From IMG/VR virus record IMGVR_UViG_3300023313_000031, positions 1 to 20,834 of that record: DNA of 20,834 nucleotides, one strand, 5' to 3'. Every line of letters begins with the position of its first letter. The stretch's first letter is position 1. Positions 2,564 to 9,070 of the stretch are shown here, piece by piece. Made by a program: the position numbers and the translations under genes. The notes beneath the pieces were generated by a model, which did not search any database, was not told the DNA's origin, and was given only the letters and a program-made list of their open reading frames with translations. This DNA is from a virus.

Positions 2564-2575
2564 GGAGCAAAATTG
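2564..2575 (+). promoter_or_regulatory. Ribosome binding site fixing a TTG start for the large terminase
   Basis: GGAG (2564-2567) stands 5 bases before an in-frame TTG (2573-2575). The frame is open upstream to about 2510, but those codons overlap the minus-strand gene, give a T-rich non-family sequence and have no ribosome binding site. The TTG start gives a 905-residue precursor whose spliced size (631) matches the GpA family. Confidence 0.65.
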
Positions 2576-5290
2576 GCGACAAATAGTTTAAATGATGTCT
2601 TAGCTGCATTTATTAAAGGATTTTTGCCGCCTCCGGTCTACACTGTTTCTCAGTGGGCTGACAATCACAGGATCCTTTCGCAAAAATCGTCAGCAGAGCC
2701 AGGGAAGTGGAGGACAGAGCGAACTCCTTACCTTAGAGATATTATGGACGACCTGTCCGACCTCTCGCCAATTCAAACTGTAGTGTTTAAAAAAGCGTCA
2801 CAGATCGGAGCGCCCTTATCTCTCAAAACCAAAATCCCAACTCCAACGGGTTGGACTACAATGGGTCAGATCCAAAAAGGCGATCTAGTTTTTGATGAGA
2901 ACGGCAAGCAATGCACGGTTACAGGAAAATCAGAGGTATTTAAATCAAGGGACTGCTACAAGATTTCCTTTTCTGATGGCGCTGAGATAGTAGCTGATGG
3001 CGATCATAAGTGGACTACCAGGCAAGCTTCAAGAAAATACAAGGCGTCTACCCTGACAACGTGTGAAATGCTCCAAAGGGCAGACGCTCTAGGAAAATTA
3101 GATCAATTCATAGACGTAACCATGCCGCTAACTACCGCTGAGGTAAGCTTGCCAGTTCCTCCTTACTCACTAGGTATTTTCTTAGGCGATGGGATCAGTC
3201 ACAAGGTTAAAGTAAATAAAACTTTTTGCGCAGAGCTAAAAGAAATAGGCGTTATTCAAAACAAACATATTCCAAAAGAATATTTAAGAGCGTCTTATAA
3301 TCAGCGTTTAAGTCTTCTACAAGGCTTGTTTATTCCAGATGGCCATATTACTAATAAAGGTTATTGCTGTTTTTATTCAACAGAGAAAAAACTAGCAGAT
3401 GGAGTATTTGAACTTTGCATTTCGTTGGGATTACACCCAAGGGCTAGTGTTAAACCTGATGTCAAAAAAGATATTTTTATTGTTGGTTTTTCAGAAGATG
3501 CAAACAGTGTCTACAAATCAAGAAGAAAAATAACCAGCATAGAAAAGGTTGAGAGCGTCCCTGTTCAATGTATTTCTGTAGACAGTGACAGCCATTTATT
3601 TTTGGTTAGCAAGCACATGATCCCGACTCACAACTCTGAGTGCGGAAATAACTGGGTCGGTTACACAATAGACCACGCTCCAGGGCCTATGCTGCTAGTC
3701 CTTCCAACGTTAGACATGGCTAAAAGAACTTCCAGGCAACGGATCACGCCTTTAATTGAAGACACTGGATGCTTGCAGCTAAAAGTTAGCACCAGAAAAC
3801 AAAAAGACGCCGACAACACGATATTAATGAAGGACTTTCCCAACGGTACTTTAGTCCTAGCAGGTGCGAACTCGAGTGCTGGACTGCGCTCAATGCCTGC
3901 TAAAAAGCTTTTCTTAGATGAATATGATGATTACCCTTTAGATATTGGCTCTCAGGGTGATCCAGTGAAATTAGCCGAGGCTAGAGCTAGAACTTTTGGC
4001 TCTAAAAGGAAAATATTTAAAGTCTCAACGCCGACAGTTTCGGGAAGATCGAGGGTAGAAGAGGATTTTGAGAACTCAGATCAAAAGTATTTCCACGTTC
4101 CATGTCCTAAATGCGACAAAAAACAGGTCTTAGTTTTCAAAAATTTGATCTGGGAAAAGAAAAACTATAAAACCGTTCATTATAAGTGCGAGCATTGCGG
4201 CTATAAAATTAAAGACTACGAAAAAACCAAGATGCTAAATGGCGGAGTTTGGGTTAAGCACAATCCTGATTTTGTCGGTAAAATCTCGGGCTATCATCTT
4301 TCAGGCTTGTATTCCCCAGTAGGTTGGATGTCTTGGGAAGAGATAGCGGAAGAGTGGGACGAGATCAGAAGCAAAAAAGCTACTGATAGAATGAAAGTTT
4401 TCGTCAACACTATTTTGGGCGAGACTTGGAAGGAAAAATCCGAGGTTCCAGATTGGAACAGGCTTTACGAGCGGCGTGAGCAATATCCCATGGGCTTTGT
4501 CCCAGACGGTGCCTACTTCTTAACTATGGGCGTCGATATTCAAGAGGATAGAATTGAGGCCGAGGTGACAGGTTGGGGACCTGACAAAGAATCGTGGTCA
4601 ATTTGCTACCGAGTAATGATGGGAAATACCTCTGAAGAGCATGTCTGGCTACAGTTAGACGCTTTAATGGGCGAGACTTTTCCTCGTGCTTCCAACGATA
4701 GAATTAGAATGCCGATCAAAATGACTTGTGTTGACTCGGGTTTCAGGACTAAAACAGTCTATTCTTGGGCTAGAAAACATCCGTTGACAAAAATCTCTGT
4801 CATCAAGGGTCGTGATTCGATGACAACATCTGTCGGACTTCCCAAGCCAGTTGACGTGACTGTCAAAGGAAAGAACGTTAGAAGAGGCTTAAAGGTTTGG
4901 TCTGTGGGCGTGTCACTTCTCAAAAACGAGCTCTATTCTTGGCTAAGGCACAATATGGCTAAGGAAGAGGATAGAGCGCCAATTGGCTATTGTCATTTTC
5001 CTGAATATGATGTCGAATATTTCAAACAGTTGACAGCGGAAGAATTAGTCATCAAGATTGTCAAAGGATATAAAAAACCTGAGTGGCAAAAAAAGCGAGA
5101 GAGAAACGAGGCATTAGATTGCCGTGTTTATTCGATGGCAGCTTCCATTATTCTTGGGATAGATCGATACACTGAAGAGCATTGGCGCAGGTTGAAGTCA
5201 AATCAAAGCGTTCAAGCGCCTCAAAGTCCGCATAAACAGTCTAAAATCAATAGACCGAGCATCAATAGAAGGAGATCTAGTTGGCTGTAG
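2573..5290 (+). CDS. terL: Terminase large subunit, lambda GpA family, with intein
   Basis: This is the packaging motor and DNA-cutting subunit. The precursor is 905 residues; removal of a 274-residue intein leaves 631, against 641 for lambda gpA. The ATPase P-loop, reading KASQIGA-SECGNNW after splicing, is split by the intein between Ala80 and Ser355. Walker B is LFLDEYD with Asp449/Glu450. Two CxxC pairs (Cys511/514 and Cys539/542) form the zinc-ribbon-like element usual in this family. The nuclease part shows GVDIQEDRIE (Asp655) and NEALDCRVY (Glu846, Asp849); after subtracting the intein these fall near the nuclease residues Asp401 and Glu586 of lambda gpA as I recall them. It overlaps the gpW-like gene by 10 bases. 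The family suggests cos-type cutting, but no cos site was identified. Confidence 0.92.
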   Translation: MATNSLNDVLAAFIKGFLPPPVYTVSQWADNHRILSQKSSAEPGKWRTERTPYLRDIMDDLSDLSPIQTVVFKKASQIGAPLSLKTKIPTPTGWTTMGQIQKGDLVFDENGKQCTVTGKSEVFKSRDCYKISFSDGAEIVADGDHKWTTRQASRKYKASTLTTCEMLQRADALGKLDQFIDVTMPLTTAEVSLPVPPYSLGIFLGDGISHKVKVNKTFCAELKEIGVIQNKHIPKEYLRASYNQRLSLLQGLFIPDGHITNKGYCCFYSTEKKLADGVFELCISLGLHPRASVKPDVKKDIFIVGFSEDANSVYKSRRKITSIEKVESVPVQCISVDSDSHLFLVSKHMIPTHNSECGNNWVGYTIDHAPGPMLLVLPTLDMAKRTSRQRITPLIEDTGCLQLKVSTRKQKDADNTILMKDFPNGTLVLAGANSSAGLRSMPAKKLFLDEYDDYPLDIGSQGDPVKLAEARARTFGSKRKIFKVSTPTVSGRSRVEEDFENSDQKYFHVPCPKCDKKQVLVFKNLIWEKKNYKTVHYKCEHCGYKIKDYEKTKMLNGGVWVKHNPDFVGKISGYHLSGLYSPVGWMSWEEIAEEWDEIRSKKATDRMKVFVNTILGETWKEKSEVPDWNRLYERREQYPMGFVPDGAYFLTMGVDIQEDRIEAEVTGWGPDKESWSICYRVMMGNTSEEHVWLQLDALMGETFPRASNDRIRMPIKMTCVDSGFRTKTVYSWARKHPLTKISVIKGRDSMTTSVGLPKPVDVTVKGKNVRRGLKVWSVGVSLLKNELYSWLRHNMAKEEDRAPIGYCHFPEYDVEYFKQLTAEELVIKIVKGYKKPEWQKKRERNEALDCRVYSMAASIILGIDRYTEEHWRRLKSNQSVQAPQSPHKQSKINRPSINRRRSSWL
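2813..3634 (+). other. Class 3 intein with reduced LAGLIDADG endonuclease region
   Basis: A 274-residue intein sits in frame in the terminase P-loop. It starts PLSLKTKIPTPTGWTTMG (block A with Pro1) and ends IPTHN, followed by extein Ser. It lacks an N-terminal Cys/Ser. It has the class 3 triad: Trp67 two residues after the block B His (DHKW), Cys253 in block F (VQCISVD) and Thr272 before the terminal His273-Asn274. Ending the extein at Ala80 restores the family spacing of the P-loop. Endonuclease motifs are YSLGIFLGDG (Asp at 3188-3190), a block-D-like IPKEYL, and LLQGLFIPDG (Asp at 3338-3340). The two motif aspartates are only 50 residues apart, much closer than in a full two-motif enzyme, so splicing is probably intact while homing is doubtful. 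Confidence 0.88.
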
Positions 5291-5496: not shown

Positions 5497-6975
5497 ATGT
5501 GGATTGATTCAGCAATAGGTTTTTTCTCACCTTCGACAGCTTATAAAAGAATTAAGTCGAGAAGAAAAATCGACTCTATAAAAAGAAAATTCGAGGCTGC
5601 TTCTAGGTCTCGGAGAACTGCCGGTTGGCATGCCGCTTCGACTTCAGCTAACACTGAAAACAGGCAGGCTATTACTATTCTAAGAAACCGTAGCCGTGAC
5701 TTAGTTAGAAATAATCCCTACGCAAATAGGGCTGTGACTCTAATAGCCAACAACGTCATTGGCAAAGGCATTATTCCTTACATAACTAATCCAAACGAAA
5801 CCGCTCAAACATCATTTCAAGAACTTTGGAAGGCTTGGGCTAATTCTAAGGAATGTGATTTCGATGGTATTTTAACATTCCCGGGCATTCAAAATCTTGT
5901 CGTTAAGTCTATGGCTGAATCTGGAGAAGTTTTAATTAGAAAAAGAATTTCTACAGAGTTTGACACTATTCCTTTGCGACTCCAGGTGTTGGAATCTGAT
6001 TTTATTGTCTCAAGTGAGTTTTCTGTAAATGAAAAAAATGGCAATCAAATAGTTCAAGGGATAGAATTTGATAGCTTAGGTAAAAGAATTGCCTATCACC
6101 TCTATGAAAATCATCCAGGTAATTCAGGCTTTGATTTATCTAACTCGTTTAGAACTATCAGAGTGCCAGCAGAAGAGATAATCCACCTTTTCCGCACCGA
6201 CAGACCTGGACAAATCAGAGGTGTGCCATGGCTATCGTCAATCATGCTCAGGCTAAAAGATTTCGACGAGTTTGAAGATGCTCAACTTGTCAGACAGAAA
6301 ATAGCTGCCGCTTGGTCTGTTTTTATCACTGACTTACAGGGCGATGACGATCTATCAGAACAAGAGCGAGTTGATTTAGGAGAAAAGGTCGAGCCTGGTT
6401 TGATCGAATTATTGCCTCCAGGCAGGGATGTTAGATTTGCTTCACCTCCTGGAGTTTCAAACTACAAAGAATACACAACCACTGTCCTGCATGCCATTGC
6501 CGCCGGAGCTGGTATTTCTTATGAGGCACTTACGGGCGATTTATCCGAAGTGAATTTCTCTTCAGCTCGCATGGGTTGGTTAGAATTTCAAAGAAATATT
6601 GATTCTTGGCGAACTAGCATAGTAAATCCTTGCTTAAACGACACGACATTCAAATGGTTTTTGAATTCTAGTGAGTTACTTGGCTTCAAACCGGCAGAAA
6701 CCAAGGCTGAGTGGACGTCTCCGAAAAGAGAGATGATTGATCCAACCAAGGAAATACCTGCTAAAATCAAGGCTATTAGGGCCGGTATCGAGCCATTGTC
6801 AGACGTAATCAGACAAAATGGCGGAAATGTCGAAGATAAGTTGCGAGAAATTGCGGAAGTTAATAAAATGTTAGACACGCTCGGAATAATTTTAGATATT
6901 GATCCAAGAAAAGTGCTCTCAACTGGCAAACTTCAGGATCAAACAAATGGCGAAGTTTTACCGCAAGATAATTGA
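5497..6975 (+). CDS. Portal protein, lambda gpB family
   Basis: The 492-residue product is the dodecameric portal through which DNA enters and leaves the capsid. The N-terminal part has the family's RNRSRDLVRNNPYANRAV stretch (about residues 67-85) and VIGKGIIPYI. Later come SGEVLIRKR, the IIHLFRTDRPGQIRGVPWL region (residues about 228-247), LPPGRDVRFASP, and GISYEALTGDLSEVNFSSAR, which are all hallmark stretches of lambda-type portals. Length is slightly below lambda gpB (533). The ATG follows the gpW-like stop codon directly. The C-terminal tail (after residue 430) is charged and presumably flexible. Confidence 0.93.
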   Translation: MWIDSAIGFFSPSTAYKRIKSRRKIDSIKRKFEAASRSRRTAGWHAASTSANTENRQAITILRNRSRDLVRNNPYANRAVTLIANNVIGKGIIPYITNPNETAQTSFQELWKAWANSKECDFDGILTFPGIQNLVVKSMAESGEVLIRKRISTEFDTIPLRLQVLESDFIVSSEFSVNEKNGNQIVQGIEFDSLGKRIAYHLYENHPGNSGFDLSNSFRTIRVPAEEIIHLFRTDRPGQIRGVPWLSSIMLRLKDFDEFEDAQLVRQKIAAAWSVFITDLQGDDDLSEQERVDLGEKVEPGLIELLPPGRDVRFASPPGVSNYKEYTTTVLHAIAAGAGISYEALTGDLSEVNFSSARMGWLEFQRNIDSWRTSIVNPCLNDTTFKWFLNSSELLGFKPAETKAEWTSPKREMIDPTKEIPAKIKAIRAGIEPLSDVIRQNGGNVEDKLREIAEVNKMLDTLGIILDIDPRKVLSTGKLQDQTNGEVLPQDN

Positions 6976-7081
6976 ACGCTTTTATTTTAATTGTAGTCTG
7001 TTAAAGTCAGTCAAATTTAAGACGATAAACTTTTCAAACTTCGATTTAACTTTAATTGGTTTCCACCTAAGGAAATAATAA
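6976..7081 (+). promoter_or_regulatory. Intergenic leader before the capsid gene (weak hairpin, possible promoter)
   Basis: This is the longest gap between plus-strand structural genes and is very AT-rich. It contains a weak hairpin in which GTCT (6996-6999) and TAAA (7002-7005) pair with TTTA (7016-7019) and AGAC (7020-7023). A poor promoter match, TTAAAG (7001-7006) and GATAAA (7024-7029) with 17 bases between, overlaps it. AAGGA just before the ATG is the ribosome binding site. Extra transcription of the capsid gene is plausible because capsid protein is needed in excess, but evidence is weak. Confidence 0.3.
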
Positions 7082-9070
7082 ATGGTCAGAAAAGAAAACC
7101 TCGGCAAGGATGTTAGAGCAGCATCTTTCAAGCCAGGAACTTTTAACGAAGAGCGCAACACGATAGACGTAGTTTTTTCCTCCGGTGCTCAAGTCAAGCG
7201 TCAATCATTTTTCGAGGGTGATTTTATCGAAGAGCTATCGCTCAAGAGAAAAGACGTCAGACTTGATAGATTGAACTCAGGCGCTCCTGTCTTAAGTAAT
7301 CATGATTCCTATAGGCTTGATTCTGTTTTGGGCGTAGTTGAAAAAGCTTCGATCAAAAAAGAAGATGGCAAAACTCTCGCTATGGCCACTGTTAGATTTA
7401 GCGACAGAGAAGAGATAAAGCCTATTATTAAAGACATTCGAGACGGAATACTTCCCAATATCTCAGTTGGCTACCGAGTCCATAAGTTTGAAGAAATGCC
7501 AAAAAATGATGATGGCGTCCCTGTATTTAGAGCCACAGACTGGGAGCCTTACGAGATTAGTTTTGTAACTATTCCGGCAGACGCTCAGGCTCAAGTCAGA
7601 TCAGACGACGAAAAACATGCTTGCGAGATTGTTAGAATAGAAGAGGCTTTAAACGTCCCAGAAGAATCGACAGTATTAGATTCGGATAGAGACGGTTGCA
7701 CATATGGCGATGAGTCAAGAAGCGAAATTTCAAATTGTAAATCTAAAGGAGTTAGAGAGATGCCAACAGAAGAAACAGTGAATCTTGACGATGTTAAATT
7801 AGCAGCCGTCAACGAAGAGAGAAAAAGAGTTTCTGAAATCACTACTGCAGTTCGATCAGCAGGATTGAGCGAAGATTTCAAAAGCACTTTAGTTGAAGGA
7901 GGAACTTCTATCGATGAAGCTAGAAAATTAGTGATAGAAGAATTAGGAAAAAAAGACGCTGAAACTAAAACACGTTCAAGCAATGTTGCTATCATCACTG
8001 AAGAGCGTGACACTGTAAAGCGAGGCATCGAAGATGCTATCCTTCACCGCACTGATTCAAGAGTAAATAAATTAACTGACGTCGGTCGTGAGTTCAGAGG
8101 CATGGGACTTCTTGACATGGCTCGGGAATGTCTTGACCAAGCAGGCGTTAAAACTAGAGGCATGAGCCGCCAAGAAGTTGCTAAGCTTGCACTTAGGGCG
8201 CACACCTCTTCAGACTTCCCTGAAATTCTAGCGAACGTAGCTGGTAAAACTCTTCGTGATGCTTATGAAGCAGCTCCACAAACATTCGAGTCATTTACAA
8301 GACGAGTTGAAGTGCCTGACTTCAAGCAAGTTTCAAGGACACAACTTGGAGACGCACCAGACTTAGAAGAAGTTTTGGAAAGTGGAGAGATTTCTCAAGG
8401 AACTGTCGGCGAGCAAGCTGAAAAATATGAAGTTAAAACTTATGCGAAGATGATTGGCATGAGCAGAAAAATGCTTGTTAATGACGACCTATCAGCATTT
8501 GCAAGAATCCCTCAGCTATTTGGCCGAGCAGCAGCAGACTTAGAGTCTGATCTTGTTTGGAATATCTTGTTCGACAATGCCGCTCTCGCAGATGCGGTAG
8601 CTTTGTTCCACGCAACCCACAGCAACCTAAACCAAGGTGGTTTGTCAGCTATTACTGTTGCTTCTTTGGGAGCTGCAAGAGCTGCCATGAGAACGCAAAC
8701 TGGTCTTAACGGTCGTAAGTTAAACCTAGCTCCTATGAACTTATGTGTTCCAGCAGCTTTGGAGACAGTAGCTCAGCAGTTCATAGCTAACATCACTCCA
8801 GATCTAGCAGGAAACGTTAACCCGTTTTCTAACAGATTGAATCTTATCGTAGAGCCTAGAATTGACGACAATGACGCCAACTCTTGGTACTTGATGGCGG
8901 ACGCCGGACAAGTTGACATGATCGAGCTAGCTTCATTGACTGGCGAGACAGGTCCTATGATCGAGACTGAGGACATGTTTGACTCAGAGGGAATTAAGAT
9001 CAAAGCTAGAATGGATCGAGGCGTTAAAGCTATCGACTTCAGAGGAATGCAGAAAAACGACGGTGCATAA
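7082..9070 (+). CDS. Prohead protease / scaffold / major capsid fusion protein
   Basis: One 662-residue chain joins a U35/HK97-type prohead protease to a HK97-fold major capsid protein. In the protease (residues about 10-175) the catalytic candidates are His74 in LSNHDS and Ser128 in NISVGYRV, with the conserved WEPYEISFVTIPADAQA stretch (from residue 154) behind it. Residues about 227-320 are helical, charged and look like a scaffold or delta domain. The capsid part runs from about residue 330 to the end (FPEILANVAGKTL, KMIGMSRKMLVNDD, DLVWNILFDN, then the C-terminal beta domain). Such natural protease-capsid fusions are known in phages. An in-frame ATG at 7760 with a strong ribosome binding site could also give a separate 436-residue scaffold-capsid protein. 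The protease would cut itself and the scaffold away during maturation. Confidence 0.9.
   Translation: MVRKENLGKDVRAASFKPGTFNEERNTIDVVFSSGAQVKRQSFFEGDFIEELSLKRKDVRLDRLNSGAPVLSNHDSYRLDSVLGVVEKASIKKEDGKTLAMATVRFSDREEIKPIIKDIRDGILPNISVGYRVHKFEEMPKNDDGVPVFRATDWEPYEISFVTIPADAQAQVRSDDEKHACEIVRIEEALNVPEESTVLDSDRDGCTYGDESRSEISNCKSKGVREMPTEETVNLDDVKLAAVNEERKRVSEITTAVRSAGLSEDFKSTLVEGGTSIDEARKLVIEELGKKDAETKTRSSNVAIITEERDTVKRGIEDAILHRTDSRVNKLTDVGREFRGMGLLDMARECLDQAGVKTRGMSRQEVAKLALRAHTSSDFPEILANVAGKTLRDAYEAAPQTFESFTRRVEVPDFKQVSRTQLGDAPDLEEVLESGEISQGTVGEQAEKYEVKTYAKMIGMSRKMLVNDDLSAFARIPQLFGRAAADLESDLVWNILFDNAALADAVALFHATHSNLNQGGLSAITVASLGAARAAMRTQTGLNGRKLNLAPMNLCVPAALETVAQQFIANITPDLAGNVNPFSNRLNLIVEPRIDDNDANSWYLMADAGQVDMIELASLTGETGPMIETEDMFDSEGIKIKARMDRGVKAIDFRGMQKNDGA
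7746..7762 (+). promoter_or_regulatory. Internal ribosome binding site and start for the scaffold-capsid part
   Basis: AAAGGAG (about 7745-7751) lies 8 bases before an in-frame ATG (7760-7762), at residue 227 of the fusion. This is exactly the junction between the protease domain and the helical scaffold-like part, where a linker would be. Initiation here would make a 436-residue protein beginning MPTEETVNLDDV in addition to the full fusion, so that capsid subunits outnumber protease. This resembles the nested C/Nu3 arrangement of lambda. Use of the site is inferred from its position and quality. Confidence 0.6.

Follow-up and report, generated by a model that had tools for sequence, protein, structure and literature searches.

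A phage terminase gene whose ATP-binding loop is split, in frame, by 274 additional codons raises the question of what the interrupting element is and how a packaging motor could be made from such a gene. The gene lies in an IMG/VR record of 20,834 bases, analysed over its whole length and here called the window, which carries a series of genes for head and tail: a D12 methyltransferase, the terminase, a lambda-type portal, a protease-capsid fusion, a tail sheath, a tape measure protein, a Mu GpP-like hub and baseplate J. The terminase reading frame comprises 905 codons (2573-5290), with a TTG at 2573 as the favoured start, a GGAG a few bases 5′ of it and a stop at 5290. Very probably, the element is a class 3 intein interrupting Walker A in a GpA-family terminase, most likely able to excise itself and descended from a recurrent homing lineage, with an endonuclease that now looks degenerate. 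The features on which this reading draws are the following, all on the plus strand.

2573-2812, plus: N-extein of the GpA-family terminase large subunit, 80 aa, ending in the Walker A sequence KASQIGA (reading frame; GpA_ATPase Pfam match).
2792-2812, plus: N-terminal half of the Walker A motif or P-loop (KASQIGA), continued after splicing by the Ser-Glu at 3635 (alignment with the intein-free alleles KxxQIGG/TECGNNWVG).
2813-3634, plus: class 3 intein, 274 aa, from Pro1 to His273-Asn274 (in-frame segment, matches to sequences of solved structures, alignment, AlphaFold model).
2954-2956, plus: Cys48, counterpart of the redox-trap Cys48 of Mycobacterium smegmatis DnaBi1 (class 3 alignment; PMC6195587).
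2996-3013, plus: block B, Asp62-x-x-His65-x-Trp67 (DxxH; B:10 His, B:12 Trp), with numbering shared with MsmDnaBi1 and MchDnaB1.
3170-3343, plus: remnant LAGLIDADG endonuclease core, from block C LGIFLGDG (3170-3193) to block E LLQGLFIPDG (3314-3343) (alignment).
3569-3571, plus: block F Cys253 (F:4), the predicted first nucleophile (alignment).
3626-3634, plus: block G Thr272-His273-Asn274 (G:5-G:7) (alignment).
3635-5290, plus: C-extein, 551 aa plus stop, with Ser+1, the remainder of the GpA ATPase and the GpA nuclease domain (reading frame; Pfam).

The host protein belongs to the GpA family, since the joined extein scores far above the cut-off for both of its domains, the ATPase (PF05876, E 9e-81, 271.5 bits) and the nuclease (PF20454, E 1e-92, 310.7 bits), and its closest named relatives are the phage WO terminases of Wolbachia, at about 51%. 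The placement of the insertion at the P-loop of a GpA terminase, proposed in the initial annotation, is borne out by these matches and by intein-free GpA genes, which are uninterrupted at this point (KGSQIGG/TECGNNWVG). The same annotation gave 631 residues for the protein after removal of the insert, which is correct, and equated this length with that of lambda gpA, which has 641 aa, so that the two are close only. A search with a 30-base word of the extein found no additional contig of the window's phage, and a scan of genome contigs with the whole terminase precursor as query found no relative; the same type of scan with the C-extein reached only distant loci of Bryobacterales, Acidobacteria, Polyangiaceae and gammaproteobacteria. 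Elsewhere in the window, the D12-type adenine methyltransferase frame (648-1616) has an internal Leu/Gln-rich tandem repeat (LQRLKQLQRLQQLQKLQHLERLDQLQKLEK), and a prohead serine protease (Peptidase_S78) and a capsid protein (Phage_capsid_4, Mu gpT-like) are fused in a single 662-aa frame (7082-9070).

The insert was recognized as a class 3 intein by direct comparison with solved structures. The phmmer search against the PDB returned as top matches the class 3 DnaB inteins of M. chimaera (6rix, 6riy) and M. smegmatis (6bs8), with E-values of 1e-25 to 3e-24, in two blocks (intein residues 2-74 and 239-274) that keep H65, W67, C253 and T272-H273-N274 in register. Thus, C253 coincides at F:4 with the nucleophilic Cys of 6rix and 6bs8, and W67 and H65, at B:12 and B:10, fall on the W67 and H65 of MsmDnaBi1 and MchDnaB1. 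The catalytic sets reported for these two proteins are Trp67, Cys118 and Thr137 with Asp62 and His65 in DnaBi1 (PMC6195587), and Cys124, His65, Thr143 and Trp67 in MchDnaB1 (PMC7664689). Residue 1 is Pro rather than Cys, Ser or Thr, Ala or Pro being usual there in the aligned relatives; Thr272 occupies G:5, Asn274 occupies G:7, and the +1 residue is Ser, a position held by Thr in 49, Ser in 36 and Cys in 1 of the relatives. In an alignment of 87 class 3 sequences, made up of the window's intein and those of viral contigs, phages and one plasmid, the catalytic His, Trp, Cys, Thr and Asn columns are filled in every row, although the Cys at F:4 and the final Asn were partly demanded by the pattern that collected the sequences.

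The predicted fold points in the same direction. The AlphaFold model of the intein, built from a 70-row alignment, reached a pLDDT of 94 and superposed on M. smegmatis DnaBi1 (6bs8) with a VIA Z of 22.7 and an rmsd of 1.4 Å over 127 residues, placing it in the Hedgehog/intein fold, and it matched PI-SceI across its entire length with a Z of about 23. The boundaries given in the initial annotation were exact (274 codons in frame, KASQIGA before and SECGNNW after), the Pro start, Trp67, Cys253, Thr272, terminal His-Asn and Ser +1 that it listed were all recovered in the translation, and neither the alignments nor the superposition moved Trp, Cys or Thr out of blocks B, F and G, an outcome fixed beforehand as one that would count against the assignment. 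The class 3 assignment and the P-loop location are therefore supported. The Pfam Intein_splicing model scored 14.8 bits, under its cut-off of 35.8, and the NCBIfam intein models also stayed under cut-off; these scores were rejected as counter-evidence, the direct match to class 3 structures being strong. Classes 1 and 2 were likewise rejected, on account of the missing nucleophile at position 1 and the full W-C-T set. Third-position GC, at 44% in the extein, drops to 34% in the intein, and this lower value is in keeping with a separate origin of the insert.

The insertion point lies within Walker A, immediately 5′ of the Mg-binding Ser/Thr, which doubles as the +1 residue of the intein. In DnaBi1 the +1 Ser has the same dual role of Mg2+ ligand and splicing nucleophile, and RadA has been quoted as precedent for an inactive intein-bearing precursor (PMC6195587). 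With Walker A divided and its Ser/Thr serving as splicing nucleophile, the unspliced terminase of the window would be unable to act as a motor.

Among GpA loci sampled regardless of inteins, by terminase or portal similarity, this site was empty in 97 of the 100 that span it (for example, KGSQIGG-TECGNNWVG) and interrupted in three (L130, L141, L149). When loci gathered via the intein (L003, L005, L051/L052, L116) or via annotated records (L135, L136) were added, the count of other GpA terminases with a class 3 intein at the homologous codon rose to at least nine; they are diverse and include those of Acidovorax phage ACF1 (L136), the Endozoicomonas sp. Mp262 plasmid (L135) and a Bryobacterales MAG; in L051 the invaded P-loop is of the lambda type, KSARVGY/T. 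Two of these loci have further peculiarities. Toward the end of the GpA frame of L003 (from about base 4300 to the last base of the contig, 4617), an apparent second intein, of class 1 type and beginning with CFDAQTEVLSDAGWLPF, follows EALD in the nuclease domain and runs off the contig. In L135, the unannotated 39.5-kb Endozoicomonas "plasmid" record CP092490.1, which is probably a phage or phage-plasmid, the reading frame of the intein-bearing terminase (bases 5917-8891) breaks into two downstream of the intein.

The occupation of the site also varies between close relatives. L141, with a 370-aa intein (bases 997-2106), and L142, without one (around base 349), are near-identical phages from two metagenomes; both are relatives of the window's phage with exteins about 47% identical, and distinct from it. 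At the DNA level, identity is 97.7% along 4896 bp downstream of the site and 97.1% along 345 bp upstream of it, and the flanks join exactly at QIGA/TECGNNWIG, which makes L142 an exact empty site. Since L142 lacks the intein that near-identical L141 carries, a relative can do without the element. Mismatches between the pair are concentrated beside the site, with 82 in the first 1.5 kb downstream (about 5.5%) vs 30 in the remaining 3.4 kb (about 0.9%), a cluster such as co-conversion during homing, or recombination removing the intein, would leave. The two phages constitute a natural plus/minus comparison that opens to direct testing what a P-loop intein costs, how it homes and whatever regulatory value it may have.

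On a wider scale, tblastn with the window's intein detected relatives in 651 of 50,697 phage records, and an alignment-based scan confirmed at least 573 stretches. In a quick tree the GpA inteins clustered beyond chance (4 changes vs 7.8 in shuffled data, reached in 0 of 500), in a grouping that is weakly supported and requires at least four changes; the nearest rows to the window's intein were L003, L135 and L005, all from GpA and with weak support, and its own terminal branch was long (1.74). Among the papers searched, none names an intein of a GpA terminase. P-loop inteins and class 3 inteins have been described in mycobacteriophage terminases of the Terminase_1 and Terminase_6 families (PMC5050341). 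The intein is a genuine but ordinary addition to an already recognized group of mobile protein elements; new are the same-site class 3 inteins in the other GpA terminases, the polymorphism of L141 and L142, the trimmed endonuclease and the presence of Cys48. The GpA terminase (lambda/Mu/WO-like) joins the proteins in whose P-loop class 3 inteins settle, and its site was invaded in phages from several unrelated hosts.

The endonuclease domain, whose decay was absent from the initial annotation, sets the window's copy apart from its relatives. At 274 aa it is the shortest of the 87 aligned inteins (295-390 aa in the others), with 37 residues from the first to the second LAGLIDADG motif (median 71) and 47 in the second endonuclease half up to block F (median 68). 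Ile174 stands where 85 of the 87 have Asp, and the Pfam LAGLIDADG_3 model scored 20.6, under its cut-off of 22.5. Since both LAGLIDADG halves are trimmed, homing has probably been lost, and the domain would have ceased to function while the splicing residues were preserved. The alternative of a still-active endonuclease in a compact yet fully mobile intein could draw on the terminal catalytic Asp kept in both motifs (D126 in FLGDG, D176 in FIPDG) and on the compact AlphaFold fold spanning most of PI-SceI, but the domain lacks about half of its first repeat, along with some 20 residues of its second, when set against nearly every aligned relative, which makes this alternative unlikely.

According to the preferred reading of a self-excising intein, Cys253, activated by His65 and Thr272, would attack the Ala-Pro bond at the N-junction, and the N-extein would then be transferred onto Ser+1. 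Asn274 would cyclise, and ligation of the exteins would yield KASQIGA-SECGNNW and with it an intact P-loop ATPase. The intein would belong to a lineage that recurs at the GpA site and spreads among phages through LAGLIDADG homing, and the window's copy, with both endonuclease repeats partly lost, is now probably maintained by vertical inheritance, being kept competent for splicing because the packaging motor needs its removal.

Could the dependence of the motor on splicing amount to a switch for packaging, as the initial annotation speculated? In DnaBi1, a class 3 P-loop intein, splicing is stopped under oxidative stress by a disulfide between Cys48 and Cys118 (PMC6195587). By analogy, oxidation would join Cys48 of the window's intein to the block F Cys, halting splicing and keeping the motor idle until reducing conditions return to the cell. 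The presence of Cys48 and Cys253 where DnaBi1 forms its regulatory disulfide, a location at which the precursor could not bind ATP normally, and splicing residues intact despite endonuclease decay would all be compatible with such conditional splicing, which is nevertheless judged very improbable. Cys48 was termed non-conserved in the DnaBi1 study (PMC6195587), contrary to its alignment column, which holds Cys in 77 of the 87 class 3 inteins; because it is so common, and is required in DnaBi1 for splicing per se, its presence does not argue for regulation. Moreover, the 97 empty sites among 100 GpA loci and the polymorphism of L141 and L142 indicate that packaging does not need the intein. Nothing therefore shows regulation, given a Cys48 that is common and needed for splicing and close relatives that manage without the intein. 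A redox- or metal-gated motor, in which the Cys48/Cys253 pair would delay a functional GpA terminase until splicing is permitted and the intein would be retained for that purpose, is marginally more doubtful still; if it existed, the phage would be keeping an endonuclease-decayed intein in order to gate the formation of its terminase. A splicing-dead intein in a dead phage, for which the pseudogene intein Arth_1007 of Arthrobacter FB24 (PMC3196547) offers a comparison case and which the deletions evident in the endonuclease and the long terminal branch might suggest, is the least credible proposal, as the 905-codon frame is fully open with every catalytic residue retained, the fold is predicted with high confidence and the nearby genes for portal, capsid, sheath and baseplate show no damage.

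Among known systems, the mini-inteins of M. smegmatis DnaBi1 and M. chimaera DnaB1 (6bs8, 6rix) share with the window's intein the absence of a residue-1 nucleophile, D62/H65/W67, the block F Cys and the block G Thr, and DnaBi1 also shares the P-loop insertion ahead of Ser+1 (PMC6195587). Their splicing domains are 39-42% identical to that of the window, with an rmsd of 1.4-1.6 Å, but their host is the DnaB helicase and they have no endonuclease remnant. The GpA inteins of L003, L005, L130, L135 and L136 agree with it in host family and insertion point, and Pro is likewise the first residue in L130, L135 and L141. GpA inteins are 39-49% identical to it where compared one to one, and those measured have 341-390 aa and a fuller LAGLIDADG core. 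The mycobacteriophage TerL1 and TerL6 inteins likewise occupy a phage terminase ATPase domain, at P-loop sites a and b, with TerL1-c and TerL1-e as class 3 examples, whereas their hosts are Terminase_1 and Terminase_6 proteins, the only terminase families in which that study recorded inteins, save for the terminase-like Pham3880 (PMC5050341). Finally, PI-SceI, the Vma1 intein, shares the whole-length architecture of splicing and LAGLIDADG domains, and differs from the window's intein in its class 1 chemistry and its active endonuclease.
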